Positions 292-22,115 of a stretch of 64,000 bases of DNA are shown here, piece by piece. The stretch spans positions 62,001 to 126,000 of the IMG/VR virus record IMGVR_UViG_3300021598_001198; one strand, 5' to 3'. Source of the stretch: a virus. The position numbers were made by a program, and so were the translations under genes. Under the pieces are notes generated by a model. It saw only the letters and a program-made list of their open reading frames with translations, did not search any database and was not told where the DNA came from. The first letter of the stretch is position 1; every line of letters begins with the position of its first letter.

Positions 292-906
292 ATGCCGAAC
301 TGGTGTCAAAACTCAATAACAATAACAGGTACTGAAGAGCAGATTGGTTTGCTCACTCGTATCCTTAATGATGTTCCAAAGTCCGAACCTGAAAAGTGTA
401 TCGTGTTTGAGTCCTTAATCGGTCGTGAACCTGAAATTAGTAAAGAAGAATACGAACAAGGTGGATGGTATAATGCAAACACCAGTTGGTATGGTACCAA
501 ATGGGATGTGTCATACGCCGACTGCAACTTCACTTTTGAGAAGGATGTTATCTATATGTCACCTGATACGGCGTGGTCACCACCAATAAACTTTGGTGTT
601 GTATTACACAAGATGTATGGTGTGGATGTGGAGTTGTTCTACTCGGAGGGTGGAAGTGATTTCTGTGGCAAAACAACCATTAATCAAAACGGAGTGGTTG
701 AGGATGATTATGGTTATCTCGAAGGTAACTATCGTTTTGACGAAGAATACTTTTGGGAATCCCTTTTCCAAAATGAGATGGAATATGCAATCGATAACGA
801 AACTAGTGTTGATGACTTCGTTGCACAATTCCCTTATGTGGATACGGAAGACGCAAAAGAAATCCGTAGAATATACGAAGAAGAACTAAAGGAAAAAGTA
901 AAATAA
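292..906 (+). CDS. MPNWC-type (Api92-like/DUF1281-like) phage protein
   Basis: 204 residues starting MPNWCQNSITITG, the signature of the Api92-like family with a ferredoxin-like fold that is common in phages and some plasmids; no function is established. The middle is rich in Trp, Tyr and Gly (W at about 63, 67 and 71; PDTAWSPP around 90) and the C-terminus is a charged helix. It has its own promoter and is first of a run of plus-strand genes with gaps of a few bases. Confidence 0.85.
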   Translation: MPNWCQNSITITGTEEQIGLLTRILNDVPKSEPEKCIVFESLIGREPEISKEEYEQGGWYNANTSWYGTKWDVSYADCNFTFEKDVIYMSPDTAWSPPINFGVVLHKMYGVDVELFYSEGGSDFCGKTTINQNGVVEDDYGYLEGNYRFDEEYFWESLFQNEMEYAIDNETSVDDFVAQFPYVDTEDAKEIRRIYEEELKEKVK

Positions 907-912
907 ATTCAT

Positions 913-1173
913 ATGGAAGATTTGAAAATATTATCGACAGCAGAACCTCAAGAAGAATTAACCTACCAAGAATGGGTAGACGCATTGAGAACTCAAGAGA
1001 ATGTCATTGTTTCATCCAAATACCACGCAAGAACCATCGAGCAACGGATTAAAGTTGATGAAGCAATTCAAATGAAAAGAGAAATGGAAAACTCTGAAGT
1101 AAAATTTTCCGACGGGACAGCCGAACCCCGAATTTTGTTTGGCATGTTAAAATCTGTATTAAACTTCTTTTAA
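913..1173 (+). CDS. Hypothetical protein
   Basis: 86 residues, Glu/Gln-rich, probably helical from residue 20 to 65. No family recognised. It sits 6 bases after the preceding gene and 5 before the next, so it is probably co-transcribed with both. Confidence 0.7.
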   Translation: MEDLKILSTAEPQEELTYQEWVDALRTQENVIVSSKYHARTIEQRIKVDEAIQMKREMENSEVKFSDGTAEPRILFGMLKSVLNFF

Positions 1174-1178
1174 AGATT

Positions 1179-1658
1179 ATGGGACGAGTAAATAAAACAA
1201 TCGAGGGTGTCTTCATTGACATCGTAGGGTCAAAGAGTGAACTGAGTTCATATGACCAATTCATCAACCACGGTGATGGTAAGAAATATTCTAAGGAGCT
1301 TAAAGAGCTCACTGGTTTATATAAGAACTTAATCACTGAGAGTAAATTAACATTCGAAAAACTAGCATCACTCGAGGAGATTATAATCCAAATGAGAATT
1401 CGTGAGGACCTCAGTGATATCAAGTTGACTCAAGTTCGTGAGTACATCTACGCAAGGACTCCTTTCTACCGTAAGGATAAGAAGTCAAAAGATGTCCGTG
1501 TTATTGTCGACAAGATTGAGTTTCACCCTGAGGAGGATTTGGAGATTTTGTCTGGCGACAAGGAGTTCATGACCAAAGCCAAGATGAAGTTAGCTCAGGC
1601 TATGGACCTCGAGATTGAGGAAAACATCCGAGTATTCAAATCAACATTTAAAAAGTAG
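1179..1658 (+). CDS. Hypothetical charged helical protein
   Basis: 159 residues, Lys/Glu-rich, mostly predicted helical, no signal peptide or membrane segment. A short aromatic stretch (YARTPFYRK, about 91-99) interrupts the helices. No family recognised. Close spacing to both neighbours suggests one operon. Confidence 0.7.
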   Translation: MGRVNKTIEGVFIDIVGSKSELSSYDQFINHGDGKKYSKELKELTGLYKNLITESKLTFEKLASLEEIIIQMRIREDLSDIKLTQVREYIYARTPFYRKDKKSKDVRVIVDKIEFHPEEDLEILSGDKEFMTKAKMKLAQAMDLEIEENIRVFKSTFKK

Positions 1659-1662
1659 AGGT

Positions 1663-1962
1663 ATGAAAACAGAAACAATTTCAACAGGTATTGGACTCTC
1701 AATTTACAAAGGTGATTGGGATGGAGCACAGTGGACACTTACTGGTTTCCCTAAAAAAGAAGCAATTGGTCACGACTACGACTCTGCCTATGACTTCGAG
1801 GACTGTGTCAAGAGAAACATCAATTGTAGTGGAATCGATTTTGACAGTGAGTATTGTCAGTTCTACGCATACGCAAAGACCAAAGCTCGTTTGGTGAGTT
1901 TTGCAAACCAAATCAAGAAACACTTTGAGAAAGCAAAGCAACTGAAGGAGGAGATGTACTGA
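1663..1962 (+). CDS. Hypothetical protein
   Basis: 99 residues. The frame is open from 1615, but the ATG at 1663, right after the previous stop and an AGAGGT stretch, is the better start. The N-terminal half is beta/aromatic (YKGDWDGAQWTL) and the C-terminal 35 residues form a Lys-rich helix. No family recognised. Confidence 0.7.
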   Translation: MKTETISTGIGLSIYKGDWDGAQWTLTGFPKKEAIGHDYDSAYDFEDCVKRNINCSGIDFDSEYCQFYAYAKTKARLVSFANQIKKHFEKAKQLKEEMY

Positions 1963-2053
1963 ATTTAGATTGGCAAAAATATTCTAGAAAAATTTGGAAT
2001 ATTCTAGTAAATGTATTAATTTTGAATATAGAACATTAAAAATCAATAGGTGT

Positions 2054-2656
2054 ATGACAAACAAAATCAAATTAGGAACTGAGGTCGTAGTATCCGACCC
2101 TTGTTACACAATCCCAACCTGGTGTCAGGGAATTGTTAGTGGTGTTAAACCCGGTATGTATGACACCTATGTTAAGCGTCACGACTGTGGTGATTGGGGT
2201 ATCCGAAGTTCAATGATACTTGTCATACACGAGGACCATAAAGACGACAAACTGGTTTGGAAAGATTATCCTGCAACCATCGGTGTCGACTCAGGTCAGT
2301 GTGGAATCTTCTCCAAAGAATCTTACCGTGACGACTCTATTACAGAACGAATCGGTTTGGGAGATGGTGACATTTCATTCTTTGGTGTAACACCTTGGAA
2401 AGAAATGACCGAGGCCCGTGAGGAAGAACAAGGTGAAAAATGGTACATCAGTATGTGTTCTCGTACCTTGGGTGATAGTCGATACGGTGTGTATGACGAG
2501 GGAGTAGTTTCTTCATCTGGTTTTGGTGATGGTTCTTACACATTATATGTTGCAAAGAAAAGAGGAAAGATTATTGCAATGTGTGTTGACTTCGCGGTGG
2601 AGGAAGACGAAGTAATTGATTTTGAATTTTTTCGTGATATCCATATTGAGAAGTAA
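2054..2656 (+). CDS. DUF4241-like protein
   Basis: 200 residues from the ATG at 2054; the frame is open from 1994, but that part lies in AT-rich leader. Features resembling the DUF4241 group are VSDPCY near residue 15, a VKPGMY turn, DWGIRSSMI, and VDSGQCGIF near residue 82, followed by a Gly-rich GFGDGSYTLYVA segment. Function unknown. An upstream ATTTAGATTGGC stretch (1963-1974) resembles the repeat found at 3.9-4.55 kb. Confidence 0.7.
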   Translation: MTNKIKLGTEVVVSDPCYTIPTWCQGIVSGVKPGMYDTYVKRHDCGDWGIRSSMILVIHEDHKDDKLVWKDYPATIGVDSGQCGIFSKESYRDDSITERIGLGDGDISFFGVTPWKEMTEAREEEQGEKWYISMCSRTLGDSRYGVYDEGVVSSSGFGDGSYTLYVAKKRGKIIAMCVDFAVEEDEVIDFEFFRDIHIEK

Positions 2657-2680
2657 TAAATTTTATTTAGATTTGGAGTT

Positions 2681-2971
2681 ATGAAAAAAATATTATTTAT
2701 ATCAGCACTTGGATTAGTTGGTTGTGGAACCAATCGAACATATATCCAACACGGGGACAAGGCATTAGTAAGTGGACACAAAGTTTACTTTATCGATTGC
2801 AACATAACCCGAGAAGTAATTAAACCCCAATGGGATAAAGGTTCATATGGTGATACCATGAAGGTATACTTAGTGGATACACTGACATTTATGAATATGT
2901 GTAGAAAAGCATCACCATGTGGATGTTCACCAGCAGGAACAACCGCAAATAAAACTGTAACAAAAACTTAG
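2681..2971 (+). CDS. Small lipoprotein
   Basis: 96 residues with a lipoprotein signal peptide: MKK start, hydrophobic core, lipobox LVGC with Cys15 as predicted lipid site. The mature part is Cys-rich near its end (CRKASPCGCSP). Probably anchored to the inner face of the outer membrane. No family recognised. Downstream gene begins 5 bases later. Confidence 0.8.
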   Translation: MKKILFISALGLVGCGTNRTYIQHGDKALVSGHKVYFIDCNITREVIKPQWDKGSYGDTMKVYLVDTLTFMNMCRKASPCGCSPAGTTANKTVTKT

Positions 2972-2975
2972 TATT

Positions 2976-3437
2976 ATGTTCAATACACAGAAACCTCAAG
3001 AACCGATTCACATATTCACCCCATCTCAGTGGTTGAATATTGGTTGGCTGGCCATGGTACCAGCAACTTACTTCGTACACCCATATGCATGTGCATTGGC
3101 GGTAGTCATCTATATCTACAAATATTTCGAAGTAGATTGTTGGAGGTATGAATTCTATGATGACTGTGTAATTGAACGAAAAGGGGTCTTCAGTGTGACT
3201 CGAGAATCTGTGAACTATTTCAGGATTAAATCTGTAATGGTCGACGAACCATTTTGGATGAGATTACTTGGACTGTCTGTTGTTCGAGTTATTACTTCAG
3301 AGCAATTTAAACAGCAACTAATATTTCAAGCCGTACCACACGGTGAAGGTATTCAAGCGTTTTTACAGCACAACGCAAGAGTGGAGAGACAAAATATGGG
3401 AATTAGGGATTTTGATGTATTCAATACTCACCTGTAG
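2976..3437 (+). CDS. Bacterial PH-domain-like membrane protein
   Basis: 153 residues. Residues about 16-50 form one or two membrane segments, followed by a beta-rich domain with the pattern YEFYDDCVIERKGVFSV ... RIKSVMVDEPFWMRLLG, resembling the bPH2 (DUF304/YdbS-like) domain after its membrane hairpin. Function of that family is not established. The call rests on the membrane-then-beta layout and on the R-x-K-S-V and G-L-S-V-V-R-V positions. Confidence 0.65.
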   Translation: MFNTQKPQEPIHIFTPSQWLNIGWLAMVPATYFVHPYACALAVVIYIYKYFEVDCWRYEFYDDCVIERKGVFSVTRESVNYFRIKSVMVDEPFWMRLLGLSVVRVITSEQFKQQLIFQAVPHGEGIQAFLQHNARVERQNMGIRDFDVFNTHL

Positions 3438-3451
3438 CAATATTTAAAGTC

Positions 3452-3610
3452 ATGATAGTAGTAGAACCACGGATTCAGGAACAGTTCATGAGGATAGCAA
3501 TGGCTAGACTTAATAAGAAATATTGTTTTAAACCTCAAAGGTTAGCAATGGCGGCCAAGATGTTTTCACAATATTTGCAACGTTTGGAAGAAAGGGGGAA
3601 GAGTAAATGA
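3452..3610 (+). CDS. Small basic hypothetical protein
   Basis: 52 residues, strongly basic (many Arg/Lys) and helical, starting MIVVEPRIQEQF. Its stop overlaps the start of the next gene in an ATGA, typical translational coupling, which supports it as real. Function unknown. Confidence 0.65.
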   Translation: MIVVEPRIQEQFMRIAMARLNKKYCFKPQRLAMAAKMFSQYLQRLEERGKSK

Positions 3611-3927
3611 AACTCTTCATCAGGGACAAGGTATACTTCACGGACCCTACCACAGGTGAAATAATAGAAGACACCATTACCGACGTTAATGACAACGTAG
3701 TGATGGGAAAGAAATTCAACTTGACTGATTTATATTGGAAGGGTGAGTTAAACGTATATAGGTTAGAGTGTCACATATGTGGATTCAGTATACCAGCACC
3801 TCTATCGCAATTTCAGGTAGATGGAATAAAAGGTAAGCAGCAATTATTACCATCCACATGTGGTGTATGTTTAGAAGAGTCACGGTACCCTGATAACCCT
3901 GAGGAGGGAATCATACTGTGGATTTAG
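3607..3927 (+). CDS. Zinc-ribbon-like protein
   Basis: 106 residues. Two Cys pairs, CHIC (about 55-58) and CGVC (about 85-88), could bind one zinc ion across an intervening hairpin. The N-terminal half is beta-rich with TDPTTGE. Coupled by ATGA overlap to the upstream basic microprotein. Its stop codon lies inside a copy of the GATTTAGTTTGGC repeat (3921-3933). Confidence 0.65.
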   Translation: MKLFIRDKVYFTDPTTGEIIEDTITDVNDNVVMGKKFNLTDLYWKGELNVYRLECHICGFSIPAPLSQFQVDGIKGKQQLLPSTCGVCLEESRYPDNPEEGIILWI

Positions 3928-3933
3928 TTTGGC
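3921..3933 (+). repeat. Upstream copy of the GATTTAGTTTGGC element
   Basis: GATTTAGTTTGGC, identical over 13 bases to the copies downstream of the H1/AP2-like gene. It overlaps the stop codon of the preceding gene. Confidence 0.75.
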
Positions 3934-3963
3934 ATTAGTTCTTTGAAAGATTTTTTTATAGGA

Positions 3964-3995
3964 TTTGGTTTTTAGGATTTTCTTGTGTATATTTT
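3964..3995 (+). promoter_or_regulatory. Bacteroidota-type promoter
   Basis: TTTG (3964-3967), exactly 20 bases, then TATATTTT (3988-3995), one mismatch from TAnnTTTG. It drives the H1-like gene, whose ATG is 21 bases downstream. Confidence 0.7.
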
Positions 3996-4016
3996 ATATA
4001 TCAAAATCAATATATT

Positions 4017-4286
4017 ATGGCAACAAAGAAGTCCACAACTAAAAAACCCGCCAGCAAACCAGCGGCGAAACCAGCTCCAGCCCCCAAAAAGGGTGGGAAG
4101 AAAGCAGTAGCAGCTCCGGCTATGAAAACAACCGTAAGTACTTACGTACCTGTTTCACACCACATCTACTATGATGGTTTCTCTTACCGTGTACGTGCTA
4201 GCGTTAACGGAACCCGTTACTCTCAGAACTTCTCCTCCAAGAAGAAAGCTTTCGAGTTCCGTAAGAGTATCTTGAGTAATATGTAA
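4017..4286 (+). CDS. Histone-H1-like tail plus AP2-like DNA-binding domain
   Basis: 89 residues in two parts. Residues 1-37 are Lys/Ala/Pro-rich with KKPA and KPAAKPAPAP repeats, like bacterial histone H1 tails. Residues about 46-85 (HIYYDGFSYRVRASVNG, YSQNFSSKKKAFEFRK) have the three-strand-plus-helix layout of AP2-like or integrase arm-binding domains. Probably an abundant DNA-binding protein. It has its own promoter and a strong terminator, so it is a monocistronic unit. Codon choice is more GC-rich than neighbours, as in highly expressed genes. The DNA target is unknown; flanking repeats are candidates. Confidence 0.75.
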   Translation: MATKKSTTKKPASKPAAKPAPAPKKGGKKAVAAPAMKTTVSTYVPVSHHIYYDGFSYRVRASVNGTRYSQNFSSKKKAFEFRKSILSNM

Positions 4287-4309
4287 TAGACGACTCAAGT
4301 CTCTTAACC

Positions 4310-4344
4310 AAATCCTGTGATTAACGTCACGGGATTTTTTTTTT
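4310..4344 (+). terminator. Strong intrinsic terminator
   Basis: Eleven-base-pair stem AAATCCTGTGA / TCACGGGATTT (one G-T pair), six-base loop TTAACG, then an uninterrupted T run. Closes the H1-like gene. Confidence 0.9.
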
Positions 4345-4362
4345 AATGAGAATCCTGACGAC

Positions 4363-4553
4363 GGGACCTGAGATGGTCAATTTAGTTTGGCGGAAAGGTT
4401 GTTTAGACAATTGATGTTGTAACAATAAATCCACCGATTTAGTTTGGCGGAATCAGAATCCTCAGAATCGTCCGACGGTACCGATTTTGTTTGGCACAAA
4501 CTAACTAACACTTGTTAGTTCAGGGACCTGAGGAGGTCGATTTAGTTTGGCGG
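4363..4553 (+). repeat. Array of four TTTAGTTTGGC elements, two with a hairpin
   Basis: Copies at 4379-4393, 4436-4450, 4483-4497 (variant GATTTTGTTTGGCAC) and 4539-4553 share GATTTAGTTTGGCGG. The first and last are longer repeats: GGGACCTGAGRWGGTC directly precedes the core (4363-4393 and 4523-4553), and in the last copy GACCT-GAGG-AGGTC is a perfect hairpin. A further inverted repeat, AACTAA CACTTG TTAGTT, lies at 4499-4520. No gene fits the region. Role unknown: operator array, origin, or RNA element. Confidence 0.8.
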
Positions 4554-4560
4554 GGGAATG

Positions 4561-4576
4561 GTATTTATATGTAAAG
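4561..4576 (+). promoter_or_regulatory. TATTTAT-type promoter-like element (shared 16-mer)
   Basis: GTATTTATATGTAAAG, identical over 16 bases to the sequence upstream of the minus-strand gene at 31597-32790 (32801-32816). The core TATTTAT is 16 bases before the ATG at 4585. No TTTG-N20-TAnnTTTG pair is seen here, suggesting a second promoter class. Confidence 0.55.
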
Positions 4577-4584
4577 TAAATGAG

Positions 4585-5376
4585 ATGATTAAACTAACAG
4601 AAACTTTAGAAGGTGATGATGTCCAAAAGTTTCACGACGCTTTACCACAAATAGGTGACTCACTTAAAGGACTGACCGATGGGACCATTACAATAAAATA
4701 TGTTGTAGCTGAAGACCCAACCCAAGGAACAATAGATGGTGTCCCTTTTATAAGTGAATGTCTATTGAAACTATTTGTTGATGTTAACAGGGTTTATCCT
4801 GAGATGATTAATGACATCTACATTTTGGTTGGCAGAAAAATTCAAGAGATTGGGTTCGGTGAATTTCCGTTCAAGTTAAGTATAAGGTCACTTCACCTTA
4901 TTAACGGACCTTTAATTATTGATTTATTAGAAGAATCGTTTGACAGAAATTATACCAATCACCTCAGGTATGATAATCCAACAATACAGTACATTTTGTC
5001 TGGCCAATATTCCCTTGTATTACCTCAAGATGTATTACCTAAGTTTTTTGACCAAATGGATGAGTGGATAAAAATTTTAATAAAGAGAGCGACGGTGTAT
5101 TACACCGTATATAAAAAAGGAAAGATAGATGACCATGAGTATGAACTCGTAGACAACCCAGTTATTAGAGTTGTGGTACGCGGGAAAAAAGATATAAAAA
5201 ATGAAAAAGATTTAATTCCGTTCATTGATTCAAAATTTAAAACCATAGATGGTATCGAAAAAGGTAGTCCCGATTTCCCCTATAACTTACAAGATAATAT
5301 TATTGATAAGTTAGAAAAAAAGTTCAGGGAGAAACACAACGTAAGAATTTTTATTGACGACACGAGACGTGTATGA
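4585..5376 (+). CDS. Hypothetical protein, possible late or virion gene
   Basis: 263 residues from the ATG at 4585 (MIKLTETLEG). The frame is open from an ATG at 4558, but those nine codons contain the promoter-like 16-mer, so the later ATG is preferred. Soluble, acidic, mixed alpha/beta, ending with a charged helix and a DDTRRV tail. No family recognised. It is isolated by repeats upstream and a terminator downstream, and the element shared with 31597-32790 suggests co-regulation. Confidence 0.75.
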   Translation: MIKLTETLEGDDVQKFHDALPQIGDSLKGLTDGTITIKYVVAEDPTQGTIDGVPFISECLLKLFVDVNRVYPEMINDIYILVGRKIQEIGFGEFPFKLSIRSLHLINGPLIIDLLEESFDRNYTNHLRYDNPTIQYILSGQYSLVLPQDVLPKFFDQMDEWIKILIKRATVYYTVYKKGKIDDHEYELVDNPVIRVVVRGKKDIKNEKDLIPFIDSKFKTIDGIEKGSPDFPYNLQDNIIDKLEKKFREKHNVRIFIDDTRRV

Positions 5377-5396
5377 CATATATACGTATATACATT

Positions 5397-5427
5397 AACC
5401 CCCTTGTATGACACTTGGGGGTTTTTT
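5397..5427 (+). terminator. Intrinsic terminator
   Basis: AACCCCC / GGGGGTT seven-base-pair stem with a 13-base loop, followed by six Ts. Ends the plus-strand block before the strand switch. Confidence 0.85.
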
Positions 5428-5627
5428 ATTTACATCTGTTTTTCTGAAAATATAAAAATATAACTCTTATTTCGAACAAGGGTCAATCCCCTACTATGTC
5501 CCACAATTTCCCACTTTAATCCACTTTTATGGATTGTAATACGACCAGCGGGATTTCTTGTCATACATTCGTATATATCTGAGAAAAATTCCTTACGACA
5601 AAAAATGTCTGGATTACAGGGTTAAAA
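5428..5627. other. Convergent strand-switch intergenic region
   Basis: No gene found in 200 bases. It holds a small inverted repeat AATCCA CTTTTA TGGATT (about 5519-5536). TATACGTATATA-like palindromic tracts lie on its edge (about 5381-5394) and near 5570. Transcription converges here from both sides. Confidence 0.5.
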
Positions 5628-12571: not shown

Positions 12572-12609
12572 AAAAAAAAACACCCTAATTTATCCAACTT
12601 TCAGGTGTT
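12572..12609 (-). terminator. Intrinsic terminator of the RNA unit
   Basis: On the minus strand AACACC ... GGTGTT (plus 12604-12609 and 12579-12584) is followed by about nine U residues (12572-12580). It ends the structured-RNA transcript. Confidence 0.7.
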
Positions 12610-12778
12610 ATGGTTGTCCCCGTTGCCGGGTTAGGAATAGACTTACAGGGGCACGTTGTTCTTTATCACCCTTTTGGTATTCCCCGCGGATAGTCAGTCC
12701 GAATAAGACGTTGTCTTATTATCAGTCCTCTACGGTTATCACACCGTTTCTCATCATGTGAGGCACACTATCCGATGA
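12572..12778 (-). ncRNA. Candidate structured non-coding RNA, unclassified
   Basis: About 207 bases visibly richer in G+C than the surroundings, without a good minus-strand ORF. On the minus strand: CGGATAGT (12774-12767) pairs perfectly with ACTATCCG (12694-12687). Inside it, CCTC/GAGG (12763-12760 and 12730-12727) encloses an ACGGT/ACCGT hairpin, and AATAAGAC-AAC-GTCTTATT (12720-12702) is a perfect hairpin. Then GGAATA/TATTCC (12683-12678 and 12639-12634), a CCCG-GCAA-CGGG hairpin with a GNRA loop (12630-12619), and the terminator. A promoter and a 35-codon ORF lie upstream. I matched it to no known class (tRNA, tmRNA, RNase P, 6S, group I intron, hammerhead considered). Confidence 0.65.
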
Positions 12779-12886
12779 TTAATCGGAACGTTTCTTTAGA
12801 TATTCTTTTCTTGTTCTATATTCCCCTACTTTGTAACCAGCGAGAAACCAAAGAGAGAATCCTATGTATACTAAAATAACTGTCAT
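12779..12886 (-). CDS. Membrane microprotein heading the structured-RNA transcript
   Basis: 35 residues: one hydrophobic helix (about 3-17, Ile/Leu/Phe/Trp) then a basic tail (EYRTRKEYLKKRSD). It starts 14 bases after a consensus promoter, and its stop abuts the first stem of the candidate RNA. It could be a leader peptide or an independent product. Confidence 0.5.
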   Translation of the reverse strand: MTVILVYIGFSLWFLAGYKVGEYRTRKEYLKKRSD

Positions 12887-12900
12887 AATTAATTTTGATA

Positions 12901-12931
12901 CAAATATAATGTATATTTTTTAATATGCAAA
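12901..12931 (-). promoter_or_regulatory. Bacteroidota-type promoter
   Basis: Minus strand: TTTG (12931-12928), 19 bases, TATATTTG (12908-12901), a perfect -7 box. Drives the microprotein and structured-RNA unit. Confidence 0.75.
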
Positions 12932-20201: not shown

Positions 20202-22115
20202 TTAGTACTGAGATATCTTACCCAATTTAGTAACCTTGTTTCCCCTAAATTCTGAGTGTTCCTTTATTATGCCGTAAAAAGACACCTTTGAATTAATTGA
20301 AACGCTCTTATGTAAATTAGTTGTTAGGTATTCAGTATTAATTTCACCAAATTTAGAAAATATGTTACCATTTTTGTCAACCAAATCATAGACAGTTGTT
20401 GGCCCATAAAGACCATTCACGGTTCTAATATCGGTAACAGTTAGTTCAAAATAAATTTTCATACCAGGACTACCGACAAATTTACTCACCTTTAATTTGG
20501 ATTCGTCAATGTCCCTTGATTTGTGGTTAACAAATGCATCAAAGTCGGTTACAAATCCTAAAGTGGTTTTGGCTCTTGTGTAAGCAACGTATTCTAAATT
20601 TTTTTCTTGTTCAATTTGCCATGGTAAGGTTGCAAATTTCGATGGAAATAATTCTGGGTGGATAATAAAAACCCTTTCTGATTCAAGACCTTTAGATTTA
20701 TGTACGTTACTCAAGCATATTCCACTTTTTTTATCATCTGAAAAGATATCATCGATTTTCTTTACAACAATTGCGGGGTCATCTATCCCGTGGGATAACG
20801 CTTCTATTACTTGTATCTTTTCACCAAATAGAATTACTTGGTTATCCTCTAACGCTTCACTTCTTTTCATTGTGTGATTTGTCATTGTTTTTTCAATCAA
20901 CTTTTCTTTGTCCTTAAGAAGACAACATATTACGTTTGTCATGTTATATTCTTCATTCTTCTTGTTGCAAGAAAGTATCATGGTTTTCAAAGACTTACCA
21001 ATATCAGAACCAATTATATAAGATTTTTTACCTTCACTTAATAATTTGATACACAATGAGACAACCGGAAATGTATTTCTACACAAAACCATGTCCCCAT
21101 CCATAATATCTTTATAGGAGAAGTTTTCAATTACTCTACCTGACCTATTTTTAGAATGAGCAATGATTGCTGGATTTATGTGTCGAACCAAATTTAAAAT
21201 CTCAGGCGAGACTCTATATGTAAAAGACAATGGTAATTCAACCGTGTTTGGTAGTTCTTTCAATTTTTGATATGACTCATGGTCAGCACCTGCAAAACCA
21301 TATATCGCTTGTTTAGGGTCACCTACAGCAATGAATCTACCACCATCAGGTTTCATTGCTTTTTGCATCAATAAACGGTGACAAGAATTCAAATCTTGAC
21401 ATTCGTCTATAAAAACAAAATCGTAATTATCTCCCGAATGGTTCAAAATGATTGGTAAAGAAATCATGTCGGTATAATCGAGAACCTTTAGATAAGACAT
21501 ACCCAATTTAGACAGATACCATGCGGCAGTGGATTCACCATCTTGATTGTTCACAGAATGAAACTCTGCAATTTTATTTATCTCACCAACACCAATTGGT
21601 TTGATATCAAAATTTACTAAATGTTGTCTCGATAAATTACACAGAGTTACAACATCGGTAACAAATTTATACCTGTCAATATTCTCACCTTGAACAGAAT
21701 CATGGATGCCTTGAATGTACTTGTTTTGTTCTTCGTTGAATCCGTATTTGTCTAAACTATCGGGTTTTTCACCACTGTAAAAATTAATGATGTCCCAAAA
21801 AAGATTTCGATACTTTAAACTTTTTTCGTCAACACCACAATCATAGTTATTCCTCATGATTGTGTAACCGAAACCATGGACCGTTTTGACATCAATGTTC
21901 TTATTTTCGGGAATCCTTCTTTTTAATTCATCTCGTATACTAACATTGAATGCCAAAAACAATACTGATTTATCATCAGGTATTAAGTCCAAAGCTTTTA
22001 ATAGTGTCGTCGTTTTACCACTACCAGCAACAGCAGAAACTACTGCGTTTCGAGTATCTTTTAAAATAAAATTGAAAATATCTTTTTGATATTTGCTGGG
22101 TGTAAATTTAGACAT
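20202..22115 (-). CDS. UvrD/PcrA-like superfamily 1 DNA helicase
   Basis: 637 residues. SF1A motifs in order: Q-like FTPSKYQ (4-10), Walker A AVAGSGKTT (28-36), motif Ia FLAFN, Ib VKTVHGFGY, Walker B FIDECQD, motif III GDPKQAIYGFAGAD, motif IV SFTYRVS, motif V NVHKSKGLE, motif VI YVAYTRAK. The last about 90 residues form a beta-rich extra domain (LTVTDIRTVNGLYG ... KVSFYGIIKE) that may bind DNA or a partner. Shorter than UvrD (about 720). Probably acts in replication, recombination or repair of phage DNA. Confidence 0.9.
   Translation of the reverse strand: MSKFTPSKYQKDIFNFILKDTRNAVVSAVAGSGKTTTLLKALDLIPDDKSVLFLAFNVSIRDELKRRIPENKNIDVKTVHGFGYTIMRNNYDCGVDEKSLKYRNLFWDIINFYSGEKPDSLDKYGFNEEQNKYIQGIHDSVQGENIDRYKFVTDVVTLCNLSRQHLVNFDIKPIGVGEINKIAEFHSVNNQDGESTAAWYLSKLGMSYLKVLDYTDMISLPIILNHSGDNYDFVFIDECQDLNSCHRLLMQKAMKPDGGRFIAVGDPKQAIYGFAGADHESYQKLKELPNTVELPLSFTYRVSPEILNLVRHINPAIIAHSKNRSGRVIENFSYKDIMDGDMVLCRNTFPVVSLCIKLLSEGKKSYIIGSDIGKSLKTMILSCNKKNEEYNMTNVICCLLKDKEKLIEKTMTNHTMKRSEALEDNQVILFGEKIQVIEALSHGIDDPAIVVKKIDDIFSDDKKSGICLSNVHKSKGLESERVFIIHPELFPSKFATLPWQIEQEKNLEYVAYTRAKTTLGFVTDFDAFVNHKSRDIDESKLKVSKFVGSPGMKIYFELTVTDIRTVNGLYGPTTVYDLVDKNGNIFSKFGEINTEYLTTNLHKSVSINSKVSFYGIIKEHSEFRGNKVTKLGKISQY

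Follow-up and report, generated by a model that had tools for sequence, protein, structure and literature searches.

A phage RNA with two pseudoknots, encoded in a small transcription unit and in tRNA islands: a candidate trans-acting family

The window analysed here is the whole stretch of 64,000 nucleotides, which comes from a 156.7-kb virus record. On its minus strand, 12931-12572, a promoter, a 35-codon single-helix open reading frame (ORF), a structured RNA and a terminator follow each other in that order:

12901..12931, minus strand: promoter of the Bacteroidetes -33/-7 type, with TTTG (12931-12928), a 19-nt gap and TATATTTG (12908-12901)
12779..12886, minus strand: 35-codon ORF MTVILVYIGFSLWFLAGYKVGEYRTRKEYLKKRSD, ATG at 12886, with a hydrophobic N-terminal and a charged C-terminal half
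12580..12791, minus strand: structured RNA of 212 nt, matching our covariance model at 178.3 bits (the window is one of the 34 training rows)
12572..12608, minus strand: P7 hairpin ACACC/GGTGT (12608-12604 with 12584-12580) with a conserved 19-nt loop, and a T run (12580-12572); likely terminator

The Bacteroidetes promoter consensus is given as TTTG/TANNTTTG in PMC6847099. The pattern TTTGN{17,21}TANNTTTG occurs 11 times in the window, compared with 4.67 expected, and this number was attained by 1 of 100 shuffles. The same element precedes the RNA in a related locus, L015, at a distance of 112 nt (109 nt in the window). Assuming the 4-5 nt spacing given in the same paper, transcription would start near 12896 and produce a transcript of about 320 nt up to the T run. 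Judging from its sequence, P7 with the nine T behind it likely serves as terminator in the window, and, since six or more T start within 3 nt of P7 in 10 distinct contexts (window included), P7 can act in this way. A simple terminator scan, which takes loops of 3-8 nt, did not list this minus-strand terminator; the P7 loop has 19. The unit looks self-contained, as another Bacteroidetes-type promoter follows it closely (12563-12533). It also behaves as a cassette, because the related locus L014 aligns on both sides but lacks exactly 12578-12914 (blastn coordinates), with three bases standing there instead. G+C content is 0.45 in the RNA and 0.32 in the window. An earlier sequence-only reading had described this unit, and its promoter, its 35-residue single-helix ORF, its G+C-rich stretch and its intrinsic terminator were all confirmed; its view that an unclassified structured phage RNA lies here in its own transcription unit is supported by strong covariation and by a search of Rfam 15 that gave no match at gathering score.

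Two further observations concern the surroundings. Behind the next promoter there is a second tiny single-helix ORF, MERYPFWLNNLVYFLAGIGFGFLIFMYL (12514-12431, minus strand), which is kept in L014. A DNA helicase is encoded at 20202-22115 (minus strand); among 127 phage records matched, the best matches come from Bacteroides phages, at 36% identity, and from a Chryseobacterium phage, at 33%. A Bacteroidota host would fit, which such similarity does not prove.

The mean hydropathy of the microprotein is +1.98 over residues 1-17 and -2.08 over residues 18-35. Its homologue in L015, where the RNA is strongly changed, is identical at 25 of 35 residues without gaps. Over codons 7-35, the two differ at 3, 4 and 9 bases in the first, second and third codon positions, respectively, with synonymous changes in five codons and nonsynonymous changes in six; the ORF is probably translated, two sequences being weak evidence in this respect. 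Searches of PHROG and of proteins with the 35-residue sequence gave no match, and the ORF is not among the upstream ORFs listed for the other 24 contexts in which the RNA has no tRNA neighbour. The 5′ end of the RNA overlaps the last 13 nt of the ORF, whose stop codon lies in the P1 loop, and the final codons are thus constrained by the RNA. Seen in the window's phage and one relative only, the microprotein is probably the product of a genuine gene that merely happens to lie upstream of the RNA.

Homologues were collected in several steps. A protein from the neighbourhood gave access to 15 loci, twelve of which have it unchanged, while L014, L015 and L016 have diverged. A pattern derived from what the window and L015 have kept in common matched 49 IMG/VR stretches with 30 distinct sequences, and further members were obtained with relaxed and 3′-domain patterns, one search giving 104 stretches, with 80 loci among the matches listed. 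Seven loci (L066, L067, L070, L071, L072, L084 and L159) were dropped beforehand as chance matches. With the covariance model built here (R1) and a threshold of at least 50 bits, the RNA was found in 84 of 94 sources and then in 36 of 44 further sources; all other R1 matches scored below 20 bits. The RNA is thus carried by 119 virus records (the 120 sources less one, as L015 and L036 share a record, and with the further records of the window's phage left out); many of these records are close relatives, and together they hold 83 distinct RNA sequences. One pattern scan of bacterial species genomes gave six matches that were read as chance, and with R1 four of these scored at most 19.4 bits and two (L068 and L069) produced no row. 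At the sensitivity used, the RNA was thus found in virus records only. INPHARED searches by blastn with the window and three homologues, one of them at E values up to 10, gave no match, and there was no significant match to models R1 or R2 in Tenacibaculum phage pT24, Bacteroides phage DAC22, Chryseobacterium phage MA9V-3, cyanophage S-TIM5 or Burkholderia phage FLC9. A mixed query including part of the L018 RNA retrieved 135 records, the best 20 of which match the tRNA part only, and a motif search in L145 found nothing.

The RNA folds into seven helices (P1-P7) and two pseudoknots (PK1 and PK2), an assignment backed by covariation among the homologous sequences. In addition to P7 (99.7% paired, double changes in 5 of 5 pairs), the elements in the window are:

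12771..12787, minus strand: P1 hairpin, TCCG (12787-12784) with CGGA (12774-12771); 99.2% paired, double changes in 4 of 4 pairs
12756..12768, minus strand: P2 hairpin GTGT/ACAT (12768-12765 with 12759-12756); 98.4% paired, double changes in 3 of 4 pairs
12727..12763, minus strand: PK1, P2 loop CCTC (12763-12760) with GAGG (12730-12727) 3′ of P3; 90.2% paired, double changes in 4 of 4 pairs
12732..12747, minus strand: P3 hairpin ACGGT/ACCGT (12747-12743 with 12736-12732), loop GTGATA; 97.5% paired, double changes in 5 of 5 pairs
12702..12720, minus strand: P4 hairpin AATAAGAC/GTCTTATT, stem kept and sequence free
12687..12701, minus strand: P5 hairpin CGGA/TCCG (12701-12698 with 12690-12687)
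12640..12695, minus strand: PK2, P5 loop GACT (12695-12692) with AGTC (12643-12640)
12619..12630, minus strand: P6 hairpin CCCG-GCAA-CGGG, flanked by near-invariant TATTCCTAAC and GGACARCC; 97.7% paired, double changes in 3 of 4 pairs

Across 34 members, 93.9% of cells were paired over 29 pairs including PK1, compared with 82.2% in shuffles, and a structure-free search of all column pairs in this alignment ranked pairs of P2, P1, P6 and P3 at the top. With 65 members (64 distinct), the 26 pairs of P1, P2, PK1, P3, P6 and P7 were paired in 97.2% of cells versus 81.0% in shuffles, which leave the relatedness among members in place; double-sided changes were found in 24 of the 26 pairs, none of 500 shuffles attained any of five measures, and pairing fell to 24-47% when the partners were slid by 1-3 columns. 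Against this, 17 of the 64 rows lack the outer pair of PK1. Since members had been picked by sequence patterns, the pattern positions are biased, and the helices were retested in rows that had not been selected by them (19 rows obtained via the 5′ core and 46 via the 3′ domain). The 3′-domain rows support the 5′ helices and vice versa, so pattern choice is not the cause of the signal, and PK1 holds in both subsets. Alignments A2-A4 were fitted to a model with P1-P3 and P5-P7 and without PK1, PK2 and P4.

The remaining elements were assessed separately. P4 forms a Watson-Crick stem of at least five pairs in 45 of 54 distinct homologous segments, compared with 11% of shuffles; of the other nine, seven have four pairs and two have three, some being interrupted by G-U pairs that were not counted. 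The three P5 pairs tested are paired in 82.4% of cells on alignment A1 despite a one-base shift between types. PK2 is offset by one column between types and was therefore assessed by swapping partners between members, which was never as good in 1000 trials. Its variants include GACT/AGTC, AGTCA/TGACT, GTTCA/TGAAC, GACCAT/ATGGTC and AATCAT/ATGATT, the 3′ strand preceding TATTCC; the Watson-Crick run is just 3 in 18 of 52 members, most of which reach 4 to 6 when G-U is included. Unpaired segments are near-invariant, among them TATTCCTAAC and GGACARCC, and conserved unpaired nucleotides are also found in GATGAGAA and the P7 loop. Single-sequence folding energy gave no signal (z of -0.97 for the window and a mean of -0.46 over 36 members including it). 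One branch (L020, L028, L029, L039 and L065) keeps the 5′ domain alone (P1-P2-PK1-P3), and its different 3′ half has a long pairing around CCTCT/AGAGG; since these five members share the 5′ domain only, the 3′ domain is dispensable in places.

The sequence-only reading had proposed five stems, of which the ACGGT hairpin (P3), the AATAAGAC hairpin (P4) and the CCCG-GCAA-CGGG hairpin (P6) stand, whereas the other two do not. Its 8-bp closing stem, CGGATAGT/ACTATCCG, is paired in 66.7% of cells versus 66.1% with re-dealt partners (96 of 500 as high), and three of its eight pairs are impossible in 36 to 49 of 64 rows; slid versions pair less (14-45%), and the covariation score lies slightly above that of shuffles (40 of 500 as high). 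As for the GGAATA/TATTCC stem, GGAATA stands ahead of TATTCCTAAC in 3 of 65 members only, and TATTCC is found in 56 of 65. P1, P2, P5, PK1 and PK2 had been overlooked, as had the position of the RNA 5′ end inside the last codons of the ORF. The homologue comparison that it had suggested as a check found the fold kept with covariation, and the Rfam search revealed no known class at gathering score in the window or the homologue loci.

The covariation also bears on an antisense role against 16S rRNA, as the segments GGACAGCC...CACCTGT are similar to the E. coli 16S rRNA complement that starts at position 1044. A coarse duplex test was applied to eight members with 10 shuffles each, which makes it a weak test, as the program permits unlimited loops: two of the eight beat all 10 shuffles for 16S rRNA and two for 23S rRNA, six were no better than shuffles, and none beat them for 5S rRNA. 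CACC is a strand of P7 that covaries with GGTG, and the complementarity is lost in diverged members. We regard this reading as extremely improbable and have dropped it because P7 covaries.

The genomic setting of the RNA is dominated by tRNA arrays. The 122 model matches represent 87 distinct contexts, in about 61 of which the RNA lies directly 3′ of a tRNA or tRNA-like end. This count was made partly by eye: a script separated 59 tRNA-adjacent contexts from 28 others, and on the printed flanks L145, L149 and L176 were moved out and L031, L041, L148, L173 and L183 were moved in. When 54 matches were examined by ARAGORN with introns allowed, 23 had a tRNA ending 1-3 nt ahead of the RNA, and in 14 the next tRNA followed after 3-14 nt. 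In these, the conserved region thus extends from one tRNA processing site to the next, an arrangement that points to an RNA excised as a discrete molecule. Most other contexts have a T-arm sequence just upstream of the RNA. The window's own copy lies outside any tRNA array, and the window's record has no tRNA match; in G001, a 288-kb record of the same phage, 24 Rfam tRNA matches (23 by ARAGORN) are found at 574-5575 and the RNA at 202,770, approximately 197 kb away.

In the window and L015, an ORF overlaps the RNA, which is joined to the microprotein ORF under one promoter, and in five more of the 26 contexts without tRNA (L101, L153, L158, L161 and L185) the RNA follows a stop codon at a distance of 4 nt. 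Such arrangements could be taken to indicate a cis-acting leader, a riboswitch or a 3′-UTR control element for a neighbouring gene. Other tRNA-less contexts have ORFs ending nearby, so that outside the arrays the RNA is often placed behind ORFs, which are unrelated to each other, and 10 of the 26 have no ORF of at least 25 codons ending within 160 nt upstream. However, the flanking genes differ among members and most contexts adjoin tRNAs, and the terminator behind the window copy prevents it from serving as leader of a downstream gene. We thus consider cis control very unlikely for the family, and the riboswitch-like role proposed earlier is not supported for an RNA that lies between tRNAs or 3′ of ORFs. 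For the window copy alone, a role bound to its mRNA is possible, because the RNA overlaps the coding region there.

A search of 55 records gave a single match in 50, two matches in three (including a weak one of 16.2 bits) and no match in the other two. Two copies per array are present in L096 (6374-6588 and 6994-7201) and L114 (1503-1677 and 3245-3422), and the two in L114, each behind a tRNA-Gly-like element with the same end, suggest cassette duplication. Cassettes are also exchanged, since the sequence that directly follows the RNA comes in seven different forms among 16 records in which the RNA itself is 99-100% identical to the L092 copy.

Comparison with known RNA families gave few leads. 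In Rfam 15, 16 RNA-holding loci matched only tRNA and one separate GOLLD, and six further loci (four with the RNA) matched tRNA, tRNA-Sec and freshwater-1, none on the RNA itself; ARAGORN reported neither tRNA nor tmRNA in the window. There was no match to the Rfam self-cleaving ribozymes, RNase P, tmRNA or group I intron. A ribozyme, for example one cleaving the transcript in which it lies or assisting in the processing of the tRNA array, would agree with the near-invariant unpaired segments, the two pseudoknots, the mostly single copies and the tRNA-array home. Nevertheless, when the Rfam search was relaxed to E values up to 10, three members gave no match to a ribozyme or RNase P, their matches being far below the cut-off or absent; moreover, tRNA processing accounts for the boundaries, and copies exist outside arrays. 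Catalysis therefore seems unlikely.

The closest parallels are found in structured RNAs of phage tRNA arrays. GOLLD (RF02032) is a structured phage RNA of tRNA islands whose function is unknown; many of its members exceed 800 nt, and a 14-mer cage is described in PMC12286853, which also presents ROOL as a phage RNA of unknown function that is located near tRNA islands and has pseudoknots. The RNA shares with ROOL the phage tRNA-island setting and the pseudoknots, but scans of the whole of Rfam gave no ROOL match at gathering score in the window or in 20 RNA-holding loci. Freshwater-1 (RF02979) is another orphan structured RNA and occurs in the G001 tRNA array (L206:2562-2623), although its model has 62 positions, its locus is a different one and it does not match the RNA. 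According to annotation, T4 species 1 and 2 (rnaC and rnaD) are small stable phage RNAs within a tRNA cluster, of 139 and 119 nt. Homology to them was considered and rejected, the best score in the T4 region being 6.7 bits with filters off and the whole T4 record giving no match. Homology to GOLLD was rejected as well: the RF02032 model does not match the RNA, and the L063 copy aligned with the GOLLD of L063 by blastn at a best E value of 0.07.

A scaffold or oligomer RNA of the GOLLD/ROOL sort is suggested by analogy, as the genomic setting is shared and GOLLD is present in 8 of the 52 RNA-holding records searched, at nine places that are distinct from the RNA (including L063:30-459; one record has two GOLLD copies). 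The RNA has only about a quarter of the length of GOLLD, and neither a model match nor a meaningful sequence match connects the two, so we hold such a scaffold to be quite improbable. In a looser sense, GOLLD, ROOL and freshwater-1 form a kind defined by structured RNA in phage tRNA arrays. By its covariation and its approximately 61 of 87 contexts, the RNA is a further member of this kind and, by the tests run, not homologous to GOLLD or ROOL. A literature search by title and abstract opening, with most subscription papers outside its range, revealed no description of such a family; a survey of 2017 reportedly contains 224 candidate RNAs. On Rfam 15 and this incomplete search, the family is apparently undescribed.

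The arrays of the homologues also hold tRNA-like elements with common ends (AGTCAGG...CCTGACT) and similar acceptor, D and T arms, for instance in L058:6806-7615 (four elements), L018:2504-2897, L117, L128, L129 and others. Of the 68 distinct elements, 58 are unrelated to each other in their middles, which are 22-101 nt long. Since the search pattern specified the common ends and the range of lengths, the constancy of these is partly built in, while the missing anticodon arm is not. A 5-bp arm with a 7-nt loop at the place of the anticodon arm is present in 4 of the 58 unrelated middles (4.3 expected from shuffled middles) but in 114 of 128 ordinary tRNAs from seven of the same loci, and ARAGORN without introns accepts 9 of the 68. 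These hypervariable anticodon-less scaffolds are perhaps a stranger finding than the RNA. The RNA might be their constant partner in a phage RNA system built on tRNA parts, the scaffolds and the RNA acting together, for example as a changing set of decoys or guides against host functions, which we judge improbable; the RNA is not always accompanied by them, because the G001 array has none.

Other array contents were also observed. In L206 (G001:C1:1-6500), additional non-coding stretches lie among the tRNA genes of the array. Freshwater-1 is found in one of them, and the fold z values of these gaps are -1.6 (2072-2146), -0.2 (2299-2446), -3.4 (2520-2724), -1.4 (3537-3747), -3.2 (3901-3994), -4.3 (4364-4425, a plain A+T-rich hairpin) and 0.2 (5181-5320). 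In the array of the cultured Tenacibaculum phage pT24 (L203:3288-4245), tRNA-Sup and two tRNA-Undet genes are annotated, and long non-coding gaps separate them.

The tRNA neighbourhood, the rapid exchange of neighbours and the presence of the RNA in virus records but not in the genome scan would also suit a decoy or inhibitor RNA that targets a defence of the host, for example a nuclease that cuts tRNAs or a CRISPR effector. The sequence offers no tie to a known defence and the window has no tRNA fold, and a decoy is in our estimate rather unlikely. Considering that no single neighbour is needed, that the RNA is usually single-copy, that its ends coincide with tRNA boundaries and that, at the sensitivity used, it was found in virus records only, we favour a trans-acting RNA co-expressed with phage tRNAs, and it is moderately probable that the RNA at 12791-12580 belongs to an undescribed family of trans-acting phage non-coding RNAs. 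Such an RNA would be cut from tRNA or mRNA transcripts by ordinary tRNA or mRNA processing and would be stable once excised; the window copy would form the 3′ portion of a small mRNA that has a promoter and a terminator to itself. During infection, GATGAGAA, TATTCCTAAC, GGACARCC and the P7 loop might then be offered to a protein or to the translation machinery, and the RNA would work alongside the phage tRNAs.

With a covariance model and defined ends, which open its expression, structure and function to direct tests, the family adds a double-pseudoknot member backed by covariation to the few structured RNAs from phage tRNA islands. As a smaller and widespread companion of GOLLD and ROOL, it may provide a more tractable case for understanding why phages keep such RNAs beside their tRNAs.
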